Positions 4,847-24,463 of a stretch of 58,965 bases of DNA are shown here, one piece after another. Source of the stretch: Acidimicrobiales bacterium (lineage in GTDB: Bacteria > Actinomycetota > Acidimicrobiia > Acidimicrobiales > Acidimicrobilacustridaceae). The DNA lies in assembly GCA_025455885.1 (NCBI GenBank), contig JALOLR010000016.1:34035-92999 (forward strand), in the 5' to 3' direction. The position numbers and the translations under genes are program-made. A model generated the notes under the pieces. It did no database searches, was not told where the DNA came from, and was given only the letters and a program-made list of their open reading frames with translations. The first letter of the stretch is position 1. Every line of letters begins with the position of its first letter.

Positions 4847-5410
4847 TCAACCCGGAGCCCGGGGCCCGGGCTCGGGTCGGGCCGCCAGCTCCCCGAGCAT
4901 CCGGGCGAGGGGGTCGTCGCCGTCCCGGCGACCCACGGCGCCGTCGTCGGGGACGGGCCACCGGGATCCCGGCGCCGGCGCCTGCACCCACTCCGTCGTG
5001 GCCACCCGCTCGGCGATGCGCCACCGCCCGTCCCGACGCTCGAAGCGGTCGACGAAGCGGAACCCGACCGTCAGGTTGCGGCGCGGGTCGGGGTCCGAGC
5101 TGCGGTGGTGGGCCACCCCGTAGGTCTCCGAGACGGCGACGTCCGCCTCCCCGGTCGGATCGGCCGACGCGAAGTCGACCAGGTGGTTGGCGACCAGGTG
5201 GAACGTGGCGTCGTAGCGACGGAGCAGCCCGCCGACCCAGGCCACGAACTCGTCGACGGTGCCCGAGAAGGTGCCGTGGGTGTCCGTGGCGTCGGGGTGG
5301 TAGCACGACCGGACGAGGTCGAGGTCGAGGCGGTCGATGCCCCGGCAGTAGCGCAGCACCACCTCCTCGATGGCGCGGACGTCGCCGAGGCGACCGTCGG
5401 GGCCGGCCAC
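4847..5410 (-). CDS. SnoaL-like/NTF2-family protein
   Basis: A 187-residue protein whose first 140 residues fit the SnoaL-like cone fold: an N-terminal helix ending in RYCRGIDRLDLD, then SCYHPDATDTHG, then FHLVANHLVDF and a C-terminal sheet with DRFERRDGRWRIAER. These features are typical of actinobacterial nuclear-transport-factor-2 family proteins, often steroid or polyketide ring isomerase-like or dehydratase-like enzymes. The last 45 residues are Pro/Gly-rich and probably disordered. It starts 3 bases after the stop of the upstream SDR, so the pair is one operon and may act on the same substrate. Confidence 0.8.
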   Translation of the reverse strand: MAGPDGRLGDVRAIEEVVLRYCRGIDRLDLDLVRSCYHPDATDTHGTFSGTVDEFVAWVGGLLRRYDATFHLVANHLVDFASADPTGEADVAVSETYGVAHHRSSDPDPRRNLTVGFRFVDRFERRDGRWRIAERVATTEWVQAPAPGSRWPVPDDGAVGRRDGDDPLARMLGELAARPEPGPRAPG

Positions 5411-6309: not shown

Positions 6310-7062
6310 ATGCACGCAGCAGGGGCAGTGGTCGTGACCGGGGGGGCGTCGGGGATCGGCCGGGCGAGCGCGAGGGCCGTCGCCGCCCAGGGCAGGGGGG
6401 TCGTGCTCTGGGACCTCGACGGTGACACGGCCGTCGCCGAGGCCGCCGCCATCGCCGGGGAGCTCGGTGTCGAGGCCCACGGCGCCGCGGTCGACGTCAC
6501 CGACGCCTCGTCCTTCGCGGCCGCCATCGACGACGCGCGGCGCGTCGTCGGACCGATGGGCGGGCTCGTGCACGCCGCCGGCGTGGTCCGCGCCGAGAAC
6601 CTCGGTCAGCTCGACGACGGGCTCTGGGACGCCGTGCTCGACGTCAACCTCAGGGCCTTCCCCCTGCTCGTGCAGGCCCTGCTGCCCGAGCTGCGCTCGG
6701 TGTCCGGCGCGGCCGTCGTCGGCATCGCCTCGATCGAGGGCTGGATCGGCAACGCGGCCATCCCCGCGTACTGCGCTTCCAAGGCCGGGGTGCTCGGGGC
6801 GGTGCGCTCGATGGCCCACCAGCTCGGCCCCGAGGGGATCCGGGTGAACGCCGTCTGCCCCGGGTACATCGAGACCCCGATGCTCCAGGTCGCCCTCGAC
6901 ATCCCCGAGGTCCACGAGGAGTTCCGGCGCTCGTCGGTGCTCGGCAGGGTGGGTCGACCCGAGGAGATCGGCGCACCCGTGGCGTTCCTGCTCTCGGACG
7001 CGGCATCGTTCATCACCGGGGCCTCGATCGTCGTCGACGGCGGCGTCACCGCCGTGGACTGA
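6310..7062 (+). CDS. SDR family NAD(P)-dependent oxidoreductase
   Basis: A 250-residue classical SDR. The glycine-rich motif TGGASGIGRA lies at residues 10-19, followed by DLDG (acidic end of strand 2, favouring NAD), HAAGVV, a catalytic Ser in IASIEG and YCASKAG with Tyr-x3-Lys, then CPGYIETPM and the C-terminal VVDGG. This is the complete active site of an FabG-like alcohol/ketone dehydrogenase. A GGGGGAG site precedes the ATG. It runs opposite to the other SDR at 5414-6205, and the two share a short intergenic region of about 100 bases. Confidence 0.85.
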   Translation: MHAAGAVVVTGGASGIGRASARAVAAQGRGVVLWDLDGDTAVAEAAAIAGELGVEAHGAAVDVTDASSFAAAIDDARRVVGPMGGLVHAAGVVRAENLGQLDDGLWDAVLDVNLRAFPLLVQALLPELRSVSGAAVVGIASIEGWIGNAAIPAYCASKAGVLGAVRSMAHQLGPEGIRVNAVCPGYIETPMLQVALDIPEVHEEFRRSSVLGRVGRPEEIGAPVAFLLSDAASFITGASIVVDGGVTAVD

Positions 7063-7070
7063 GGCCCCAC

Positions 7071-7092
7071 ACCGGCCGACGCGCCGGCCGGT
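7071..7092. terminator. Hairpin between convergent SDR and ctaG genes
   Basis: A perfect 7-bp stem (ACCGGCC / GGCCGGT) with an 8-base loop lies 8 bases after the SDR stop. It is followed by a run of ten Gs at 7106-7115. It can act for either convergent gene. Confidence 0.45.
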
Positions 7093-7133
7093 CCGACCCG
7101 GGCCCGGGGGGGGGGCGGTGGTTGCGGTGGCCG

Positions 7134-8051
7134 CTACGGCGCGTCGCGGGTCCCGGTCTCCGAGAGGACGGGGCCGGCGGGCTCGGTGGGGGTGGCGCCG
7201 CGGGCCGCCCGTCGGGCCTCGCGCTCCTCGGCCTGGCGGATGAAGTGCGGGATGGTGGCGTTCTCGGCCCGCTCCCGCTCCACCGCCCAGTGCAGGAAGC
7301 GCGCCGCGATCTGGATCCAGATGATCATCCCGCCGATCACCTGGGCGATGCCCGAGGCCAGCTCCTGGTCGTCGACGGCGCTGAAGCTGTCCACCACCCG
7401 GGGGGCCAGCTCGAAGGTGGCGAAGAGCGGGTACTCGGCCCAGGTCATGAAGAACGACGTGGGTAGCGGGGCGATCGACTGGATGAACAGGTAGATCAGC
7501 GCCAGCGGCCCGACCAGTCGGGGTCTCATCGGCGACGGCGGTTGCACCGGGAGCCACAGGATCACCCCGGCCAGGATCCAGAGGGCGTCGATCGCGAACG
7601 AGCCGAGCGGGCTGGTGATCGTGCGGTCCGAGACCATCGGGGTGTTGACGAGGAGCAGCAGGCCGCTCGTGGTGAGGACGGCGACCACGGGATGGGTGAC
7701 GGCGCGGATGACGGCCCGTCGGCGGTCGGTGGCGTCGAGCCACCGGCCGAGCACCGGCGGCGCCCCGTACAACAGGAGCGGGATGGCGATGAGCACGACG
7801 ATCACCTGGCGGCCCATCTGCACCGACAGCAGGTAGCCGGCGCCGAGCGACGCCATCGGCCAGTCGGTGGCGACCAGGACGAGGAGGATGCCGAGCACCG
7901 CGGAGAGCTTGCGCCGCAGCGGGAAGCCGGGGTCCTTGCGGTAGGCCCACGTGTAGAGCGCGACGAGGGTCCCGACGAGGAGCCAGGCGCCCAGGTAGGG
8001 GCGCCACTCCCACGTCCAGGCCCGGCCGTCCGCCGAGCACCACCAGCTCAC
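7134..8051 (-). CDS. ctaG: CtaG/caa3-type cytochrome c oxidase assembly membrane protein
   Basis: A 305-residue membrane protein with about seven hydrophobic segments and the marks of the caa3-type CtaG family: a WEWRPYLGAW opening, VATDWPMASLG, MGRQVIVVLIAIPLLLYGAP, THPVVAVL and LPTSFFMTWAEYPLF. The last 55 residues are polar and charged (cytoplasmic tail). CtaG proteins of this type are needed for placing copper in the oxidase Cu(B) site. The start GTG overlaps the stop of the SCO gene by 4 bases, giving an operon PCuAC-SCO-CtaG entirely devoted to copper delivery to haem-copper oxidase. Confidence 0.9.
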   Translation of the reverse strand: MSWWCSADGRAWTWEWRPYLGAWLLVGTLVALYTWAYRKDPGFPLRRKLSAVLGILLVLVATDWPMASLGAGYLLSVQMGRQVIVVLIAIPLLLYGAPPVLGRWLDATDRRRAVIRAVTHPVVAVLTTSGLLLLVNTPMVSDRTITSPLGSFAIDALWILAGVILWLPVQPPSPMRPRLVGPLALIYLFIQSIAPLPTSFFMTWAEYPLFATFELAPRVVDSFSAVDDQELASGIAQVIGGMIIWIQIAARFLHWAVERERAENATIPHFIRQAEEREARRAARGATPTEPAGPVLSETGTRDAP

Positions 8052-9330: not shown

Positions 9331-10770
9331 TCAGCCCGGCGGGGGCCAGGGCGCGGTCCGGGGCCACGGCGAGGCGGACTCGATCTGCGCGGCGAGCTGC
9401 AGGAGGATGCCCTCGCGGTTGTGGGAGGCGAGGAACTGCGCGCCCATGGGCAGTCCGTCGCCGTCGTGGCCGGCGGGGACGGACATCGCGGGTTGGCCGG
9501 TGACGTTGGCCAGCGCGGTCATCTCGCTGAACCGACCGGCCCGGGTGAACATGGCCTCGGTGCTGGTCGTGTCGAGCCAGCCCAGCTCGGGGACCGGCGG
9601 GAGCAGGGTGGGGGTCAGCCAGAGGTCGTGGCCGACGAAGAAGGGGGCCACCGACCGGCTCACCTCCTCGATGCGCTGAAGGGCGCGGATGACCTCGACC
9701 CCGGAGAAGCCCACGCTGCGCTGGTGCATGAAGCGGCTGAACGGCTCGAGGTCGTCGTCGGCCAACGGGCGCCCCAGTTCCGCCAACCGGTCCTCGACCT
9801 GCGCGGCCGAAGCGGCTCCCATCACCACCGACACGCACTCGATGACCGCGCTCGGGTCGTAGGTGGGCAGGCCCTCGGTGACCTCGTGGCCCAGCTCCTC
9901 GCACAGGGCCGCCATCCGTTCGATGGCCTCGACGGCCGCGGGGTGCGCCTCGGTGCCGGCCACCGACCGGGTGGACACCGCGATCCGCAACGGCTGGAGC
10001 GGCTCGGACAGCACGGCCATGAACGTCCCTGCCCGCGGTCGGGGTGGCGTCGCCCCCGGGTCACCGGCGGTGCCTCCGGCGACGGCGTCGAGGAGCGCTG
10101 CGCTGTCGCGCACCGTGCGGGTCACGGCGTGGCCGATCGTGAGCGGATAGGCGAAGTAGTTGAGCTGGGGGAGCGACGGCGTGCGCATGCGGGTGGGCTT
10201 CAAGCCGAACAGCCCGCACTCCGAGGCCGGGATCCGTATCGAGCCCCCGCCGTCGTTGGCGTGCCCCGCAGGCACCATGCCGGCCGCCACCGCGGCGGCC
10301 GACCCACCGCTCGACCCGCCCGTGGAGTGCGTGGTCCGCCAGGGGTTGCGGGTCGGGCCGTGCAGCAAGGGCTCGGTGCTGGCGTTCTTGCCGAACTCCG
10401 GCGAGTTCGTGTTCCCCAGGATGACGAGGCCGGCGGCCTTGTAGCGGCGGGTGAGCTCGCTGTCCGACGTGGCGACCACGTCGGAGAAGAGGCGACTGCC
10501 CCGGGTGGCGGGCAGGCCGGCCACGTCGCACCCGAGGTCCTTCACCACGAACGGCACGCCCTTGAGCGGACCGTCGGGCAACCCCTCGTCGACCTCGGCC
10601 AGCGCCGCCTCGAACCGGGTGGCCACGACGGCGTTGAGCGCGGGATTGCGCTCCTCGATCCGGCGGATGGCGGTCTCGGCGAGCTCGCGGGCCGTCACCT
10701 CCCCGATCGTGACCATCCACGCCATGTCGATGGCGTCGCGGGTGTCGAAGACATCGTCGAGGTCGGTCAT
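9331..10770 (-). CDS. Amidase (amidase-signature family)
   Basis: A 479-residue hydrolase with the Ser-cisSer-Lys triad: Lys77 in FVVKDLG, the Gly/Ser-rich loop [12 protein letters not shown] with the cis-Ser at about 153-154, and the nucleophile Ser177 in GGGSIRIP. It cleaves an amide; the family ranges from fatty-acid and aryl amides to aminocaproate-cyclic-dimer-type substrates and the substrate cannot be read here. The rest of GatCAB is absent, so this is a stand-alone enzyme, not the tRNA amidotransferase. Its ATG overlaps the stop of the sulfotransferase by 4 bases, so both are made together. Confidence 0.9.
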
Positions 10771-14453: not shown

Positions 14454-15032
14454 GTGGTGGTCGGTGCGCTCCTGGGAGTCGTCGCGGGCGTCGTGGCGGT
14501 CGGCGGCGCGGCCAAGCTGCGCGACCCCGACGCCAGCGCCCCCATGTTGCGGGCCCTCGGGCTGCCGTCCTCGCGACTGCTGGCGCGGGCCCTCGGCGCG
14601 GTCGAGGTCGTGGTCGGGGTGAGCGCCTACCTCCTCGGCGGCCCGGTGCCGGCCGCCGTCACGGCCGCCCTCTACCTCGGGTTCACCGTCGCCATCCTGC
14701 GGCTGCGCGCCGGCGGCCAGACCGTGTCGTGCGGGTGCTTCGGCCGCTCGTCCGCTCCGCCGAGCCTGCTGCACGTCGCCGTCGACGGCGCGGCCGCCGT
14801 CGTGGCCACCGTGGCGGCGATCACCGCCGCCCCGGGGTTCCTCGAGATGCGCCCGGACCTCCCCGGCGCCGGCGTCGCCTACCTCCTGGTCTCGGGGGTC
14901 GCCGTGGGCCTGGTCGTCGCGCTGCTCACCGCCCTGCCCGACGCCCTCGCCGCGGCGCGCCGCCTCCCGGCTTCCGAAGCGGCGGCGCTCCGTCCCGTGC
15001 AGTCCTTCCGTCTCGGAGGTTCGATCCGATGA
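14454..15032 (+). CDS. MauE-like (DoxX-related) redox membrane protein
   Basis: A 192-residue protein with four to five membrane helices and a CGCFG motif (Cys93, Cys95) after the third helix, as in MauE proteins. MauE is needed in methylotrophs, with MauD, to form the many disulfides of the methylamine dehydrogenase light chain; the Cys pair fits a thiol-transfer role in the membrane. The start is a GTG directly after a leaderless-type promoter. Its stop overlaps by 4 bases (ATGA) the start of the Cys-rich exported protein, so the two are translated together, which supports an enzyme-substrate relation between them. Confidence 0.82.
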   Translation: MVVGALLGVVAGVVAVGGAAKLRDPDASAPMLRALGLPSSRLLARALGAVEVVVGVSAYLLGGPVPAAVTAALYLGFTVAILRLRAGGQTVSCGCFGRSSAPPSLLHVAVDGAAAVVATVAAITAAPGFLEMRPDLPGAGVAYLLVSGVAVGLVVALLTALPDALAAARRLPASEAAALRPVQSFRLGGSIR

Positions 15033-17218
15033 GCATGACGTCGTCCACCGTGGTCGAGAAGCTCTCGGGGGTCCTCTCGGCCCGCATGGGGCGCCGGGGG
15101 TTCTTCGCCCGCTCGGCGGTCGTGGGCACCGCCCTGGCCGCGAACCCCGTCGCCTACGCCCTCACCCCGACCGACGCCTACGCGGCGATCTGCTCGTGCC
15201 AGGGCCAGGGTTGCGCGTGCGGGTCGCTGTGCTGTGACGGCTACACCGAGTTCTGCTGCACGCTCACCGGGCGCAACCAGTGCCCGCCGGGCTCGGTCCT
15301 GGCCGGGTGGTGGAAGGTCGACGGCACCGGGTTCTGCTCGGGACCCCGCTACTACATGGACTGCAACGCCCCCTGCAACGGCTGCGGGTGCGGCGGCAAC
15401 GGCGTGTGCAGCGGTGCGTGCTCCGGCACGGGCTGCGGGTGCGCCAACGGCGACTGCAACAACCGGAAGGCGGGCTGCACCAACTTCCGCTACGGCCAGT
15501 GCAACCAGGGGATCGCCTGCCTCGGCCCGATCGTCTGCCGCCTCGTCACCTGCATCGCACCGTGGGAGATCGACGGCACCTGCACCGGCACGGTCCGGGT
15601 CGACAACGCCACCGCCAACCACGACCGGCCGTGCCTGCACACCGTGGACGGGAGCGTCGAGTCCGCCACCGAGGTCACCGGGGGCATCCGGGTGACCGGT
15701 TGGGCGCTCGACGCCGACACCAACGCGCCGATCGACGTGCACGTCTACGTGGACGGCGTCGGGGCCGGCTCCGGCGTGGCGTCGCGTTCACGGCCCGACG
15801 TGGCCGCCGCCTTCCCGGGGCAGGGGCCGAACCACGGCTACGACATCACCGTCCCGGCCGCGCCCGGGGTCCGCCAGGTCTGCGTCTACGGCATCAACGT
15901 CGGCCCCAGCGGGAACGGCAACCTGTTGCTCGGGTGCCGCACGGTCCGGGTGGGCAGCCCATTCGGCAACTTCGAGGGGTTCCGGGTCGGGACGGGCACC
16001 ATCACGCTCACCGGCTGGGCGATCGACCCCGACACGACCGGGCCGGTCGACATCCACGTGTACATCGACGGCAACGGCGCGGGATCGTTCGTCGCCAACC
16101 GCTTCCGCGCCGACGTCGGCCAGGCCTACCCGGCCTACGGCCCCAACCACGGCTTCGACATCACCGTCCCGATCAGCGGCGGGCCCCACCGGGTCTGCGT
16201 CTACGCCATCAACACAGGGATCGCCGGCACCACCAACCCGGAGCTCGGCTGCATCCAGGTCGACATCGGGTCGCCGCTCGGCAACCTCGACACCGTCGAC
16301 CCCGCCGCCGGCGGGGTCCTGGTCGGGGGATGGGCGGTCGACCTCGACGACCTCACCACCTCGGTCACCGTCGACCTGCGTGTCGACGGGCGGCTCGCCG
16401 CGACGACCGTCGCCAACACACCGTTCCCGGCGCTGCAGGCCTACATCCCGGCGGCCGGACCGAACCGGGGCTACCGCTCGTTCGTCCCGGCCGCCCCCGG
16501 GCGACGGACCCTCTCCGCCGTGGCCCGCAACGTCGGTCCCGGGGTCGACAAGGTGCTCGCCCAGCGGACCGTCGACGTCCGCGCCGGCGACCCCTTCGGG
16601 AACCTCGAGCTGGCCGCCGCCGGGCCTCGTCAGATCCGCGTGGTCGGCTGGATGATCGATCCGGATTCGACAGCCCCGATCGACGTGCACGTGTACGTCA
16701 ACGGCGCGTTCGCGGGGCTCGGCGTCGCCGACCGGAACCGGCCCGACGTCGGCGCCGCCTATCCCGGCTTCGGGCCGGTCCACGGGTTCGACGTGGTAGT
16801 GCCCGCCGCCGCCGGGCTCCAGACGGTGCAGGTGTACGCCATCAACGTGGGCCCCGGCACCACCAATCCGCTGATCGGAACCCGGAGCGTCTTCGTGGGC
16901 GGCAACCCCTTCGGCAACTTCGAGGCGGTCCGGGACTCGAGCGGGGCGTTCCGGGTGAGCGGCTGGGTGATCGATCCCGACACCGCCGGCCCGGTCGAGC
17001 TCCACGTGTACGCCAACGGCGGGGGGGTCGGGCGGGCGGTCGCCGACCGTGACCGCCCCGACGTCGGCATCGCGTACCCGCTCTACGGGGCGGCCCACGG
17101 TTTCGACGCCACGTTCCCGGTCGCTCGCGGCACCTACGACGTGTGCGTCTACGCGATCAACCTGGCGAGCGGCAACACCAACCCGCTGCTGGCCTGCCGC
17201 CGCGTGGTCGTCTCGTGA
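15029..17218 (+). CDS. Tat-exported Cys-rich protein (methylamine dehydrogenase light-chain-like) with five tandem repeats
   Basis: A 729-residue secreted protein. Residues 1-53 form a twin-arginine signal (MGRRGFFARSA, twin Arg at 22-23). Residues 55-202 hold 26 Cys, with a block NQCPPGS...GWWKVDGTGFC...YYMDCNAPC that resembles the light chain of methylamine dehydrogenase (Pfam Me-amine-dh_L). Residues about 208-729 are five repeats of 103-106 residues, each with GW-(A/M/V)-(I/L)-D-x-D, VHVYV(D/N)G and NHG(Y/F)D-like blocks and ending in (P)FGNF/L. Tat export means it folds, perhaps with a cofactor, before export, yet the disulfides need MauE/MauD. W94/W95 and W179 are candidate partners if a tryptophan-derived cofactor exists, but no MauG or large subunit is near. 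GGAGG site at 15015. Function unknown. Confidence 0.85.
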   Translation: MSMTSSTVVEKLSGVLSARMGRRGFFARSAVVGTALAANPVAYALTPTDAYAAICSCQGQGCACGSLCCDGYTEFCCTLTGRNQCPPGSVLAGWWKVDGTGFCSGPRYYMDCNAPCNGCGCGGNGVCSGACSGTGCGCANGDCNNRKAGCTNFRYGQCNQGIACLGPIVCRLVTCIAPWEIDGTCTGTVRVDNATANHDRPCLHTVDGSVESATEVTGGIRVTGWALDADTNAPIDVHVYVDGVGAGSGVASRSRPDVAAAFPGQGPNHGYDITVPAAPGVRQVCVYGINVGPSGNGNLLLGCRTVRVGSPFGNFEGFRVGTGTITLTGWAIDPDTTGPVDIHVYIDGNGAGSFVANRFRADVGQAYPAYGPNHGFDITVPISGGPHRVCVYAINTGIAGTTNPELGCIQVDIGSPLGNLDTVDPAAGGVLVGGWAVDLDDLTTSVTVDLRVDGRLAATTVANTPFPALQAYIPAAGPNRGYRSFVPAAPGRRTLSAVARNVGPGVDKVLAQRTVDVRAGDPFGNLELAAAGPRQIRVVGWMIDPDSTAPIDVHVYVNGAFAGLGVADRNRPDVGAAYPGFGPVHGFDVVVPAAAGLQTVQVYAINVGPGTTNPLIGTRSVFVGGNPFGNFEAVRDSSGAFRVSGWVIDPDTAGPVELHVYANGGGVGRAVADRDRPDVGIAYPLYGAAHGFDATFPVARGTYDVCVYAINLASGNTNPLLACRRVVVS
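15650..17215 (+). repeat. Five tandem protein-repeat units inside the Cys-rich exported protein
   Basis: Units of about 103-106 codons starting near residues 208, 311, 417, 523 and 627. Units 1, 2, 4 and 5 are similar; unit 3 is more diverged (it has DLRVDG and NRGYRSF in place of VHVYVDG and NHGYDI). Conserved Cys pairs (VCVY...GC) occur in units 1, 2 and 5. They look like beta-sandwich surface or glycan-binding modules; this is inference. Confidence 0.75.
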
Positions 17219-17246
17219 CCGCGTCCCCGACCGCCCGGGGGCCGCG

Positions 17247-18104
17247 TTGACCGCGGTCGTCGTCGTGCTGGCCGTCGCCGTGGCAGTGCTGGGGGTGCTC
17301 GTCGTCGGGCTGCTGCGCACCCACGCCGAGGTCCTCCGCCGCCTGAGCGAGCTCGGCGCCGGGGTCTACGACGACGAGGTGACCACCACCTCGTCGACCA
17401 CCGGCGGCGTGCGCTCGCCGGTGGAGATCCGCACCCGCCCCGGGGTCCCCGAGCCCCGGGACCAGGCCGAGCCGGTCACCGCGACGGCCTTCGACGTCGC
17501 GGGCGTCACCCCCGACGGGTCGGCGGTCGCCGCCGGGGTCGTCGGTCGGGACCACACCACCCTGTTGGCCTTCCTGTCGAGCGGCTGCGGGACCTGCGCC
17601 GACTTCTGGCGGGCCTTCGGCGACGGCGAGGGGACACGCCTCCCCGGCCGCGACACCCGTCTCGTCATCGTCACCAAGGGCCCGACGCTCGAGAGCGTGA
17701 GCGAGGTCGCCCGGTTGGCTCCGGCGGGCATCACGACCGTCATGTCCGACGGGGCCTACGACGACTACCGCGTGCCCGCCAACCCGTACTTCATCCTGGT
17801 CGACGGCCCGACGGGCAACGTGGTGGGGGAGGGGGCGGCGGCGAGCTGGGCCCAGGTGGCCAACCTGCTCGGCCAAGCCGCCGCTGACGCCGGTCACGAC
17901 CTCGACGGCGCGCCCCTGACGCCCTCCGCTCCCGCCGGGCGACTCACCGGCCCCGAGCGATCCCGGCGGGCCGACGAGGAGCTGCGCGCCGCCGGCATCG
18001 GGCCGGGGCACCCCAGCCTCTACCCGGACCAGCTCATCGCCGACGACGAACCGCCCGAGGCGTCGCTCCCCGGGGGTGGTGGCACCCAGGACGGGCGGAG
18101 CTGA
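17247..18104 (+). CDS. MauD-like membrane-anchored thiol oxidoreductase
   Basis: A 285-residue protein: one N-terminal membrane helix (residues 2-24), a polar linker with Thr/Ser-rich stretch, and a thioredoxin-like domain with the active site SSGCGTC (Cys114, Cys117) and a cis-Pro-containing segment VPANPYFILVD. The C-terminal 80 residues are disordered-looking. MauD is the partner of MauE in disulfide formation and stability of the methylamine dehydrogenase light chain. The start is a TTG at 17247, the only likely start after the upstream stop (28 bases away). It follows its likely client gene directly. Confidence 0.8.
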   Translation: MTAVVVVLAVAVAVLGVLVVGLLRTHAEVLRRLSELGAGVYDDEVTTTSSTTGGVRSPVEIRTRPGVPEPRDQAEPVTATAFDVAGVTPDGSAVAAGVVGRDHTTLLAFLSSGCGTCADFWRAFGDGEGTRLPGRDTRLVIVTKGPTLESVSEVARLAPAGITTVMSDGAYDDYRVPANPYFILVDGPTGNVVGEGAAASWAQVANLLGQAAADAGHDLDGAPLTPSAPAGRLTGPERSRRADEELRAAGIGPGHPSLYPDQLIADDEPPEASLPGGGGTQDGRS

Positions 18105-18105
18105 C

Positions 18106-18180
18106 GTGCCGCTCTCCCTGCTCGTCGCGGGGATGGCGGCCGCGGTCATCGGCGCCGTGCGCTCGACGTGGTCGCCCTGA
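18106..18180 (+). CDS. 24-residue hydrophobic peptide in the Mau-like locus
   Basis: GTG two bases after the stop of the MauD-like gene opens a 24-codon frame reading MPLSLLVAGMAAAVIGAVRS plus four residues. It is a single hydrophobic helix with a basic/aromatic end. Its stop is 9 bases before the next gene's ATG. Position, spacing and composition suggest a real membrane micropeptide or a translational bridge that carries ribosomes to the next gene; there is no independent evidence of function. Confidence 0.5.
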   Translation: MPLSLLVAGMAAAVIGAVRSTWSP

Positions 18181-18189
18181 GGGGAGTCG

Positions 18190-18789
18190 ATGCTCTCGAG
18201 CATCACCCCGCTCGGTGAGCGGGGACGGGCCCAACGGTGGTGGCTCACGGCCACCGCCTACATCCTCGGTTCGGCCCTCGGCGGCGTCGCCGTCGGCGCG
18301 GCGCTCGGGGCCCTCGGCTCGCTGCTGGCCCGGACGGACTGGTCGGACCCGGTCGTGGCGGGCGTGGTCGTGGCGCTCGCCGTCGTCGCCCTCGTCTTCG
18401 ACGCCGGTGCGGCCCGACTGCGCCTCCCCCGCTACGGCCGACAGGTGAACGAGGACTGGATGAGCACCTACCGCGGGTGGGTCTACGGCGGCGGCTACGG
18501 CCTCCAGCTCGGGGCGGGTCTCACCACGATCGTGACGGCGGCGCTGGTGTACCTCGTCTTCGCCCTCTGCCTCCTGGCCGGTTCGTGGTGGGGCGGGGCG
18601 TTGATCGGCCTCACCTTCGGGCTGACACGCGGCCTCGCGTTGCTGAGCGTGCGCCACGTGACCGACCCCGGGGCGCTGGTGGCCTTCCACCGCCGTCTGC
18701 AACGGGCGGCACCGCGAGCCCGAGGGGCGACCGTCGTCGCCGAGGTGGTCGTGCTGGCCGTCGGGATCGCGATCGTGGTCGGCGCCTGA
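18190..18789 (+). CDS. Polytopic membrane protein of the Mau-like locus
   Basis: A 199-residue protein with five or six hydrophobic segments (about residues 20-46, 52-74, 95-125, 125-152 and 178-198). The loop GRQVNEDWMSTYRGWVYGGGYGLQLG between helices two and three is its most distinctive part, followed by GGALIGLTFGLTRG. There is no Cys pair in the helices apart from one single Cys, so it is not an obvious CcdA/DsbD electron carrier. By place it corresponds to the MauF/CcdA-like position of mau clusters; homology to MauF is a guess. A GGGGAG site precedes the ATG by about 5 bases. Confidence 0.72.
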   Translation: MLSSITPLGERGRAQRWWLTATAYILGSALGGVAVGAALGALGSLLARTDWSDPVVAGVVVALAVVALVFDAGAARLRLPRYGRQVNEDWMSTYRGWVYGGGYGLQLGAGLTTIVTAALVYLVFALCLLAGSWWGGALIGLTFGLTRGLALLSVRHVTDPGALVAFHRRLQRAAPRARGATVVAEVVVLAVGIAIVVGA

Positions 18790-18824
18790 CGCCCGCCCGG
18801 CCGCCCCCCGGGGTACGACGGTGG

Positions 18825-18830
18825 CAGACT
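18825..18830 (+). promoter_or_regulatory. Putative leaderless -10 (CAGACT)
   Basis: CAGACT ends 6 bases before the ATG at 18837. The same hexamer sits 6-7 bases before the starts at 38178 and 50330, so it may be a variant of the TANNNT element. Confidence 0.35.
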
Positions 18831-18836
18831 CGCGAG

Positions 18837-19334
18837 ATGGCCACGATCGCCGCCCACGGGATCACGGTGACCGCCCCCCAGGGTTGGGACACCGAGATCT
18901 TCCGTCGTGACCCCGATCCGCTCCCGGACCCGGCGCTGCCGTCGACGCGGGGCCCGGCCGGGACCTCGACCACCACTGTCCCTCCCGTCGCCCACGTCGC
19001 CAACTTCGGGCTCCCGCCCGTCCGCGGCGACTTCGGGGGCGGGGCGGTCGAGCTGATGGGCAGCGGCGGGGTGTTCATCTCCCTCCTGGAGCACCCGCCG
19101 GAGGAGGCCGACACCGCCCTCTTCGCCGGCCGCACGATCCCGTGGCCGTTCGTCGCCGACGACCTGTCGCCCGACACGCTCCAGCGCGGCATCGCCGGCC
19201 AGGCCGGCCTCCAGCGGTTCTTCGTCGTCGACGGACGACCGTTCTGCCTCTACGTGGTCGTGGGCAGCTACCGCCTGCGGGCCACGCTCATCGGTGAGGT
19301 CAACCGGGTGCTGGCGTCGGTGCGCTTCGCCTGA
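18837..19334 (+). CDS. Conserved-looking soluble protein at the end of the Mau-like locus
   Basis: A 165-residue protein without signal peptide or membrane helix. It begins with a beta-rich part (HGITVTAPQGWDTEIFRR), then a Thr/Pro linker (residues 33-50), and the blocks NFGLPPVRGDFGGGAVELM, GQAGLQRFFVVDGRPFCLYVV and RVLASVRF. I recall similar proteins next to MauE/light-chain-like genes in other actinobacteria, but cannot verify this here. It lies 47 bases behind the membrane protein on the same strand, with its own promoter-like hexamer. Function unknown. Confidence 0.7.
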   Translation: MATIAAHGITVTAPQGWDTEIFRRDPDPLPDPALPSTRGPAGTSTTTVPPVAHVANFGLPPVRGDFGGGAVELMGSGGVFISLLEHPPEEADTALFAGRTIPWPFVADDLSPDTLQRGIAGQAGLQRFFVVDGRPFCLYVVVGSYRLRATLIGEVNRVLASVRFA

Positions 19335-24290: not shown

Positions 24291-24300
24291 GACGACCGTG

Positions 24301-24432
24301 GGTGTGGTTCGGTGTGCAGCACACGCAACCCGTCGATGCAGGGGAAGCCGGTCCGAATCCGGCGCTGACCCGCAGCCGTGGGTGTCGTCCGGCTCCGGCC
24401 GGTGGCACGAGCCGGAATGCCTGCACCGGAGG
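24301..24432 (+). ncRNA. Cobalamin (B12) riboswitch
   Basis: The conserved core is clear: GGGGAAGCCGGTCCGAATCC at 24341-24360 (the GGGAA...GGTnnnAATCC element), CTGACCCGCAGCCGT at 24365-24379 (the CTG-CCCGCAACTGT element) and the B12 box GAGCCGGAATGCCTGC at 24409-24424. It lies upstream of a DUF4430-ECF transporter operon, so that operon takes up a corrinoid and is switched off when adenosyl- or another cobalamin is plentiful. A small stem (CGGAG-N5-CTCCG) follows the B12 box directly. Confidence 0.93.
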
Positions 24433-24463
24433 GATGCTCCGCCACACCCGTCGTCGGATCGCG

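Follow-up and report, generated by a model that had tools for sequence, protein, structure and literature searches.

Here, we describe genomic evidence for what appears to be a new selenoprotein family, a MauF homolog with a predicted selenocysteine (Sec), encoded in a conserved Mau-type cassette whose client would be a family of exported, Cys-rich proteins not described before. The cassette lies on the + strand of a 58,965-base stretch of contig C16 of an Acidimicrobiales genome (3,285,463 bases); the window, as used below, is this whole stretch. We consider it likely that the locus encodes Mau-type machinery for the oxidative folding of a protein exported by the twin-arginine translocation (Tat) pathway, instead of methylamine dehydrogenase (MADH), with a MauF that here contains Sec. 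The evidence is computational, and comprises conservation of the gene set, homology to MauF, exchange of Sec and Cys codons at a single site, selection on an RNA hairpin, and co-occurrence with the machinery for Sec incorporation.

An in-frame TGA at the conserved Cys of MauF

The initial annotation of this DNA described a 24-residue hydrophobic peptide and a polytopic membrane protein as two genes. The peptide ends in AVRSTWSP, and the same frame goes on as WSP-TGA-GESMLSS into the polytopic frame (18190-18789), which matches the Pfam family DsbD_2 (33.4-34.3 bits; E = 2.9e-8 for the frame). The MauF protein of Paracoccus denitrificans, a single characterized reference, scored 95.7 bits against a model of the whole protein (E = 1.5e-27 at Z 10000) and 66.6 bits against one restricted to the portion downstream of the TGA. 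It contains ...LLSTWSPCGYSSISLL, and the TGA falls exactly on its Cys (WSPC). The shared frame and the alignment to MauF thus make the peptide and the membrane protein a single MauF homolog of 227 amino acids (18106-18789), broken at the position of the MauF Cys by a single TGA, and the idea of a separate micro-protein was dropped. We conclude that the homolog is very probably an unrecognized selenoprotein with Sec, overlooked in the initial annotation, at the UGA of positions 18178-18180 (residue 25, WSPU). No NCBIfam model matched this protein.

The same arrangement recurs among relatives. After the MauD-like gene, 90 of 128 loci have a peptide ending in R..WSP; it is present in 89 of the 92 loci with a DsbD_2-like gene next to it and in none of the 35 without one. 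One carrier of the TGA form is Acidiferrimicrobium sp. IK. The codon at this site in 98 distinct loci is TGA in 84, TGC in six and TGT in five; three could not be read (two Cys forms and one contig edge), and neither TAA nor TAG was found. TGA makes up 86.8% of the stop codons of cassette genes, and at this background the probability of observing TGA in 84 of 84 cases by chance is 6.8e-6. All 17 non-TGA genomes examined have TGC or TGT, either in the cassette or elsewhere. Internal TGA codons were rare in matched stretches of the other genes (Cys protein, 0/141; MauE, 0/138; soluble protein, 0/127; tail of the MauD-like protein, 2/143). Between the TGA and the following ATG, the codons G-E/x-S show conservation at the protein level, with Gly and Ser unchanged in 84/84, and the Met four codons past the TGA is conserved in 93% of 108 rows and is also present in most Cys forms. 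A single Cys/Sec is conserved in the MauF-like protein, in the first helix, and 68 of the 108 rows contain no Cys after the Sec position.

SECIS-like hairpins downstream of the TGA

Two hairpins resembling a selenocysteine insertion sequence (SECIS) lie directly downstream of the TGA. The first (18189-18204 in the window, GATGCT-CTCG-AGCATC) has the general form GAUGCU-NNNN-AGCAUC at +11 to +26 after the TGA. All six pairs are kept in 74 of 83 TGA loci, compared to a mean of 8.5 and a maximum of 19 in 1000 synonymous randomizations. The complete hairpin was found in 0/11 Cys loci and in none of the 17 non-TGA genomes. The Ser codon within its stem is AGC in 83/83 loci, while across the cassettes it accounts for approximately 24% of all Ser codons. 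Hairpin 1 is kept far beyond coding need and is under selection in TGA forms only. The second hairpin (18206-18224, CCCCGCTC-GGT-GAGCGGGG; loop GGN) contains four pairs with changes on both sides, with 82.0% of cells paired. Its covariation amounts to 21 cells changed on both sides, compared to 6.7 when shuffled, and in the comparison to slid controls 88.7% of cells are paired, against 36-48%. In bacterial SECIS elements, a G occupies an early loop position.

Co-occurrence with the selenocysteine machinery

The Sec machinery was surveyed in 55 genomes, 38 with TGA and 17 with Cys at the MauF site. SelA was found in 37 of the 38 TGA genomes compared to six of the 17 Cys genomes (p = 1.1e-6); the sole TGA genome without it is 79% complete, and 11 genomes with the Cys form lack SelA. 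A tRNA-Sec scoring above 56.4 bits was present in 36/38 and 5/17 genomes, respectively (p = 1.0e-6), and SelB above its cut-off in 33/38 and 6/17 (p = 2.2e-4). No TGA genome lacks all three of SelA, SelB and tRNA-Sec. The genome that carries the window encodes a tRNA-SeC with anticodon tca, as well as SelA (418.3 bits) and SelB (273.4 bits), which are adjacent on contig C2.

Conservation of the gene set

Searching with the Cys-rich protein, which is therefore present at every locus by design, yielded 141 loci. Removal of identical Cys domains left 126 non-redundant loci, and three more without a full domain were dropped to give 123. Among the 126, MauE is present in 123, the MauD-like protein in 120, the soluble protein in 113 and the MauF-like (DsbD_2-like) gene in 98, and some of the missing genes are explained by contig ends. 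The commonest gene orders in the 141 loci are E-A-D-C-S (56), E-D-C-S-A (19) and D-C-S-E-A (12), where A denotes the Cys protein and C stands for the DsbD_2-like gene. This recurrence rules out chance; failure of the order to recur in any other genome had been named in the initial annotation as evidence against its reading, and that possibility clearly falls away. The MauF-like gene was detected in 20 of 20 genomes that were searched whole.

Genomes with the Cys domain number 63 among 296 in the class and 31 among 396 in the phylum. Named genomes were scanned as well and gave 245 relatives, the best 80 of which were kept; the named relatives are mostly Acidimicrobiia assemblies. Two assemblies (a Candidatus Microthrix parvicella RN1 bin and bin-3232) each have two copies of the Cys protein. 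An upstream carboxylase gene is restricted to the window and two relatives, and we do not count it as part of the set for this reason. In the window, Rfam has just one match at its gathering score, a cobalamin riboswitch (RF00174, 38.8 bits; 24295-24442, + strand).

The exported Cys-rich protein

The Tat-exported protein (15029-17218, 729 amino acids) consists of a leader, a Cys-rich domain of 155 amino acids (15176-15640) and five repeats with GW motifs at residues 224, 329, 434, 540 and 645. Its start codon is overlapped by the stop codon of the MauE gene. The initial description of this protein was accurate: exactly 26 Cys lie within residues 55-202, the five repeats are present, and Trp occurs at 94, 95 and 179. 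Pfam searches gave nothing convincing for this protein, the MauD-like protein or the soluble protein. An AlphaFold2 model of the Cys domain has a pLDDT of 89.3 and a pTM of 0.84. In an alignment of 123 distinct domains, W94, W95, D111, F153, R154, Y155, G156, R171 and T195 are invariant, including the GWW and FRYG motifs, and H198 is kept in 121. Of the Trp residues named initially as candidates for crosslinking, W94 and W95 are thus W in all 123 domains, while W179 is not invariant (W in 108, Y in 8, V in 4 and C in 3). An even Cys count is seen in 117 of the 123 domains, as expected if all Cys are paired.

The tail is much less conserved. Repeats of approximately 105 residues occur in 24 of the 80 named loci (the best 80 of 245), and the other relatives have different tail domains or none. 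Among 114 relatives scanned, the tail domains include LGFP (16), SLH (11), FG-GAP (11), CWB2 (5), DUF4214 (3) and ricin-type (1), and 8 of 138 relatives have a tail of fewer than 60 residues. Because tails vary or are missing, the Cys domain is the core of the family and the tail an exchangeable part. The names of these domains suggest a location at the cell surface. The initial interpretation that Mau machinery serves a different, repeat-bearing exported protein is therefore borne out in the association of the genes and its conservation, and not in the repeats.

Other open frames with the tail repeat, 50-53% identical, are present in the same genome (C1:75577-80125 and C1:276664-276993). A TGA inside the Cys protein of genome G349 proved to be a natural stop at which the protein ends; the phylum scan also flagged a TGA inside the Cys protein of G539 and G592. 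No viral relative was found.

Relationship to the light chain of methylamine dehydrogenase

By sequence, the Cys domain is not a member of the MADH light-chain family. The lack of a significant match to this family had been named initially as evidence against the proposed reading, and at the level of sequence this is what was observed: the Cys protein has no match to the Pfam light-chain family PF02975 at E up to 10. PF02975 also had no match in the genome itself, where positive controls likewise gave no signal, and was above its cut-off in 0/396 genomes of the phylum. Searches of Protein Data Bank sequences with the Cys domain, as a single sequence and as a profile, gave no match at E up to 10; hhalign against eight MauA sequences returned a probability of 2.8, which is not significant; HMMER with bias correction gave negative scores for MauA and for the light chains of Thermomicrobium roseum; and Foldseek with the AlphaFold2 model gave no match at E up to 0.001.

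Two other comparisons point to the light chain. When the model was compared to 166 chains with VIA-align, all nine rows with Z of at least 2 were light chains of MADH or aromatic amine dehydrogenase (AADH), with Z of 2.0-2.6, rmsd of 2.8-4.7 and 60-81 aligned residues; such Z values alone prove nothing. On a hidden Markov model (HMM) built from ten light chains, the eight MauA and two from T. roseum, and run without bias correction, the Cys-domain family scored a mean of 13.4 bits, compared to 7.5 for shuffles that preserve Cys, and 40 of 73 members exceeded the shuffles' 95th percentile. P. denitrificans MauA alone did not rise above Cys-preserving shuffles, 257 of 2000 of which scored as high, again without bias correction. 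An HMM that included the Tat leader recovered six of eight light-chain precursors (E of 2e-5 to 2e-4, Z 1000); we did not count this as homology because it missed P. denitrificans MauA and the T. roseum proteins and because similar leaders occur in many Tat proteins. By eye, two light-chain-like proteins of T. roseum (AWWACY...RYLDCC and SSWYMC...RYIDCC) resemble both groups. Taken as predicted by the model, the fold evidence is weak but specific, and a distant kinship between the Cys domain and the MADH light chain is probable.

One alternative is that the Cys domain is unrelated to the light chain and is a new small disulfide-rich fold that merely uses Mau-type helpers. This reading would account for the null results of Pfam, the Protein Data Bank profile, hhalign, Foldseek and bias-corrected HMMER, as well as for VIA Z values of no more than 2.6. 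It would leave the restriction of the nine best VIA rows to MADH and AADH light chains, the scores above Cys-preserving shuffles, and the presence of MauE, a MauD-like protein and MauF next door as coincidences, and we regard it as rather unlikely.

A second alternative is that the Cys domain is an enzyme subunit with a new cofactor derived from Trp or Tyr, rather than a structural head. The invariance of W94, W95, D111, R154, Y155, R171 and T195 and the near invariance of H198 are what such a subunit might show. In addition, an Asp of the family aligns by eye with the Asp of the YRDC/YNDC motif of light chains, which we take to be catalytic in MADH. However, conserved residues may be structural. 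With the sites of tryptophan tryptophylquinone (TTQ) assigned by eye, the first is GWW in 123/123 domains, while the second is Q in 111, N in 11 and R in one, and with the second Trp replaced the known route to TTQ is closed. MauG (PF03150) was found in just one of 40 carrier genomes, and no partner subunit was seen in the cassettes. The initial annotation had noted that MauB and MauG were missing; MauB (PF06433) was found in 0/40 carrier genomes, but controls gave no match either, making its absence weak evidence. We consider an enzyme subunit of this kind quite unlikely. A bolder version, in which Sec-containing MauF, MauE and MauD would use the invariant GWW and Tyr of a MauA-like domain to build a new redox cofactor derived from the protein itself, and so yield a quinone-type surface protein without MauB and MauG, is likewise a long shot.

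The other cassette proteins

The MauE-like protein (14454-15032), described initially by its CGCFG motif, matches Pfam MauE (PF07291; 60.5 bits with a cut-off of 27, E = 2.6e-16). The Cys-Gly-Cys of CGCFG and a His are invariant: C90, C92, G94 and H104, numbered by the aligned stretch, are present in 100% of 137 rows. The MauD-like protein (17247-18104, TTG start at 17247) was also recognized correctly. It is thioredoxin-like with one N-terminal membrane helix, and its CxxC is conserved in 97% of 136 rows. A family HMM matches P. denitrificans MauD (39.9 bits); the protein scored 12.8 bits against NCBIfam TIGR02661, below the cut-off of 188.6, and for this reason we name it only MauD-like.

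The soluble protein (18837-19334, 165 amino acids), also called as such at the outset, has no visible signal peptide. Its AlphaFold2 model (pLDDT 92.0) has a predicted fold of the Mog1/PsbP/LpqN kind, with VIA rows at Z up to 6.3, below the value of 8 that the tool calls safer; Foldseek with this model gave no match at E up to 0.001. EagT6 (Z 4.7) and SciW (Z 4.5), which are chaperones, are among its VIA rows, and on this basis we would guess that the protein is a cytosolic helper, maybe a chaperone of the client.

Comparison with known systems

The mau operon of P. denitrificans contains mauF, mauB, mauE, mauD, mauA, amicyanin, mauJ and mauG. It shares with the cassette homologs of MauE, MauD and MauF next to a small, Cys-rich protein exported with a twin-Arg leader and containing CPPGT and an Asp-Cys motif. 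The operon differs in that its MauF has Cys, its product is MADH together with MauB, MauG and amicyanin, its light chain has no surface tail, and no soluble Mog1/PsbP-like gene was noticed. The combination of Tat export with a dedicated disulfide system, initially called unusual, is not so: the MauA precursors examined carry twin-Arg leaders, such as ...TSRRSVIGK in P. denitrificans. With a MauF homolog as its membrane protein (95.7 bits), the cassette has a stronger link to Mau than was first seen.

A plasmid locus of T. roseum has genes for MauE, a thioredoxin-like protein and a MauF-like protein in the same order, the last also with an in-frame TGA after LWSP. It differs in that PF02975 recognizes its light chain (36.2 bits), in which both candidate Trp are retained. 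In addition, several proteins of 400-460 amino acids alternate with light-chain genes, and MauE is fused to one such domain. In the plasmid stretch, light-chain-like genes lie at 1693-2145, ~4872-5165 and ~6900-7288 (one annotated, one apparently frameshifted and one unannotated), the 400-460-amino-acid proteins have no clear Pfam match, and the MauF-like gene (9655-10325) is annotated only from an ATG downstream of its TGA.

The DsbD_2 match relates the MauF-like protein to the membrane thiol transporters DsbD and CcdA. CcdA likewise has an S-P-Cys motif in its first helix, and DsbD/CcdA have a pair of Cys; the MauF-like protein differs in having a single conserved Cys/Sec. A DsbD-like part is also found in TsoB, a rhodanese/DsbD fusion-like selenoprotein (NF045694) that, according to Table 1 of PMC13188914, differs in having two Sec (UxxxxU) and a rhodanese domain. 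A precedent for MauE and MauD away from MADH is their proposed role in candidate clusters of Streptomyces for ribosomally synthesized and post-translationally modified peptides (PMC7794033). These clusters differ in having proposed peptide precursors, and the portions of that text covered here mention neither MauF nor a selenoprotein.

Proposed function and points against it

We propose that MauE, the MauD-like thioredoxin and the MauF homolog form the membrane machinery of the cassette. The hairpins directly downstream would guide the insertion of Sec at UGA 18178-18180, and the client would be exported via Tat. MauE and the MauD-like thioredoxin may then introduce or shuffle its disulfides, a role of the kind speculated for MauE in MADH in the covered portions of PMC7794033. 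The position of the Sec in the first helix suggests that MauF Sec/Cys exchanges (seleno)disulfides with MauD or MauE, forming or proofreading approximately 13 client disulfides after export, or alternatively that it transfers electrons across the membrane. The client would be held at the cell surface by exchangeable wall-binding or adhesive tails, and the soluble protein may assist in the cytosol, perhaps as a client chaperone.

Several points weigh against this proposal. The presence of Sec in MauF and its insertion are deduced from sequence, and the action of the cassette genes on the Cys protein is deduced from their neighborhood; the MauF gene lies apart from the cassette in 13 of the 55 genomes. 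The p values of the machinery survey are inflated by kinship of the genomes, and the tRNA-Sec threshold of 56.4 bits was chosen after the list was seen. A clear tRNA-Sec is missing in two TGA genomes and SelB above cut-off in five, and six genomes with the Cys form (G285, G028, G066, G180, G048 and G162) keep SelA and SelB. The T. roseum homolog has TGA, and SelA was not found on its plasmid, with the chromosome not searched. One or two of the six pairs of hairpin 1 are missing in 9 of 83 TGA loci, folding of single sequences gave modest z-scores, from -0.2 to -1.7, for six TGA loci, and one of these six loci (L190) lacks hairpin 1 in its minimum fold.

A split gene, in which the TGA is a true stop and a 24-amino-acid membrane peptide and a 199-amino-acid protein from the ATG at 18190 arise by termination and restart and act together, could use the conserved Met as its start, as RefSeq does for T. 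roseum, and would suit the 86.8% of cassette stops that are TGA, but it is hardly credible given the absence of TAA and TAG among 84 loci (6.8e-6), the same Met in most Cys forms, where restart is not needed, the unchanged Gly and Ser, hairpin selection in TGA forms only, and co-occurrence with SelA.

Thus, the initial annotation made a real observation, partly misread it, and took an interpretation that was right in direction and is partly supported.

Implications

The Sec-containing MauF proposed here appears to be new to the selenoproteome. An inventory of prokaryotic selenoproteins from 2026, which counts 119 families or subfamilies (PMC13188914), includes in its covered portions no MauF and no stand-alone DsbD_2 family, and a search of open-access PMC literature found nothing that joins MauF with selenoproteins. 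The selenoproteome would gain a polytopic membrane disulfide protein that is liable to be cut at its UGA by gene finders and annotation. We met no description of the chemistry of MauF in the same literature. A natural replacement of Cys by Sec would mark this residue of MauF as a redox center, and the question of its chemistry becomes directly testable. In Acidimicrobiia and other actinobacteria where no methylamine dehydrogenase was found, these results indicate that a Mau-type folding machinery may act on an exported, Cys-rich protein family.

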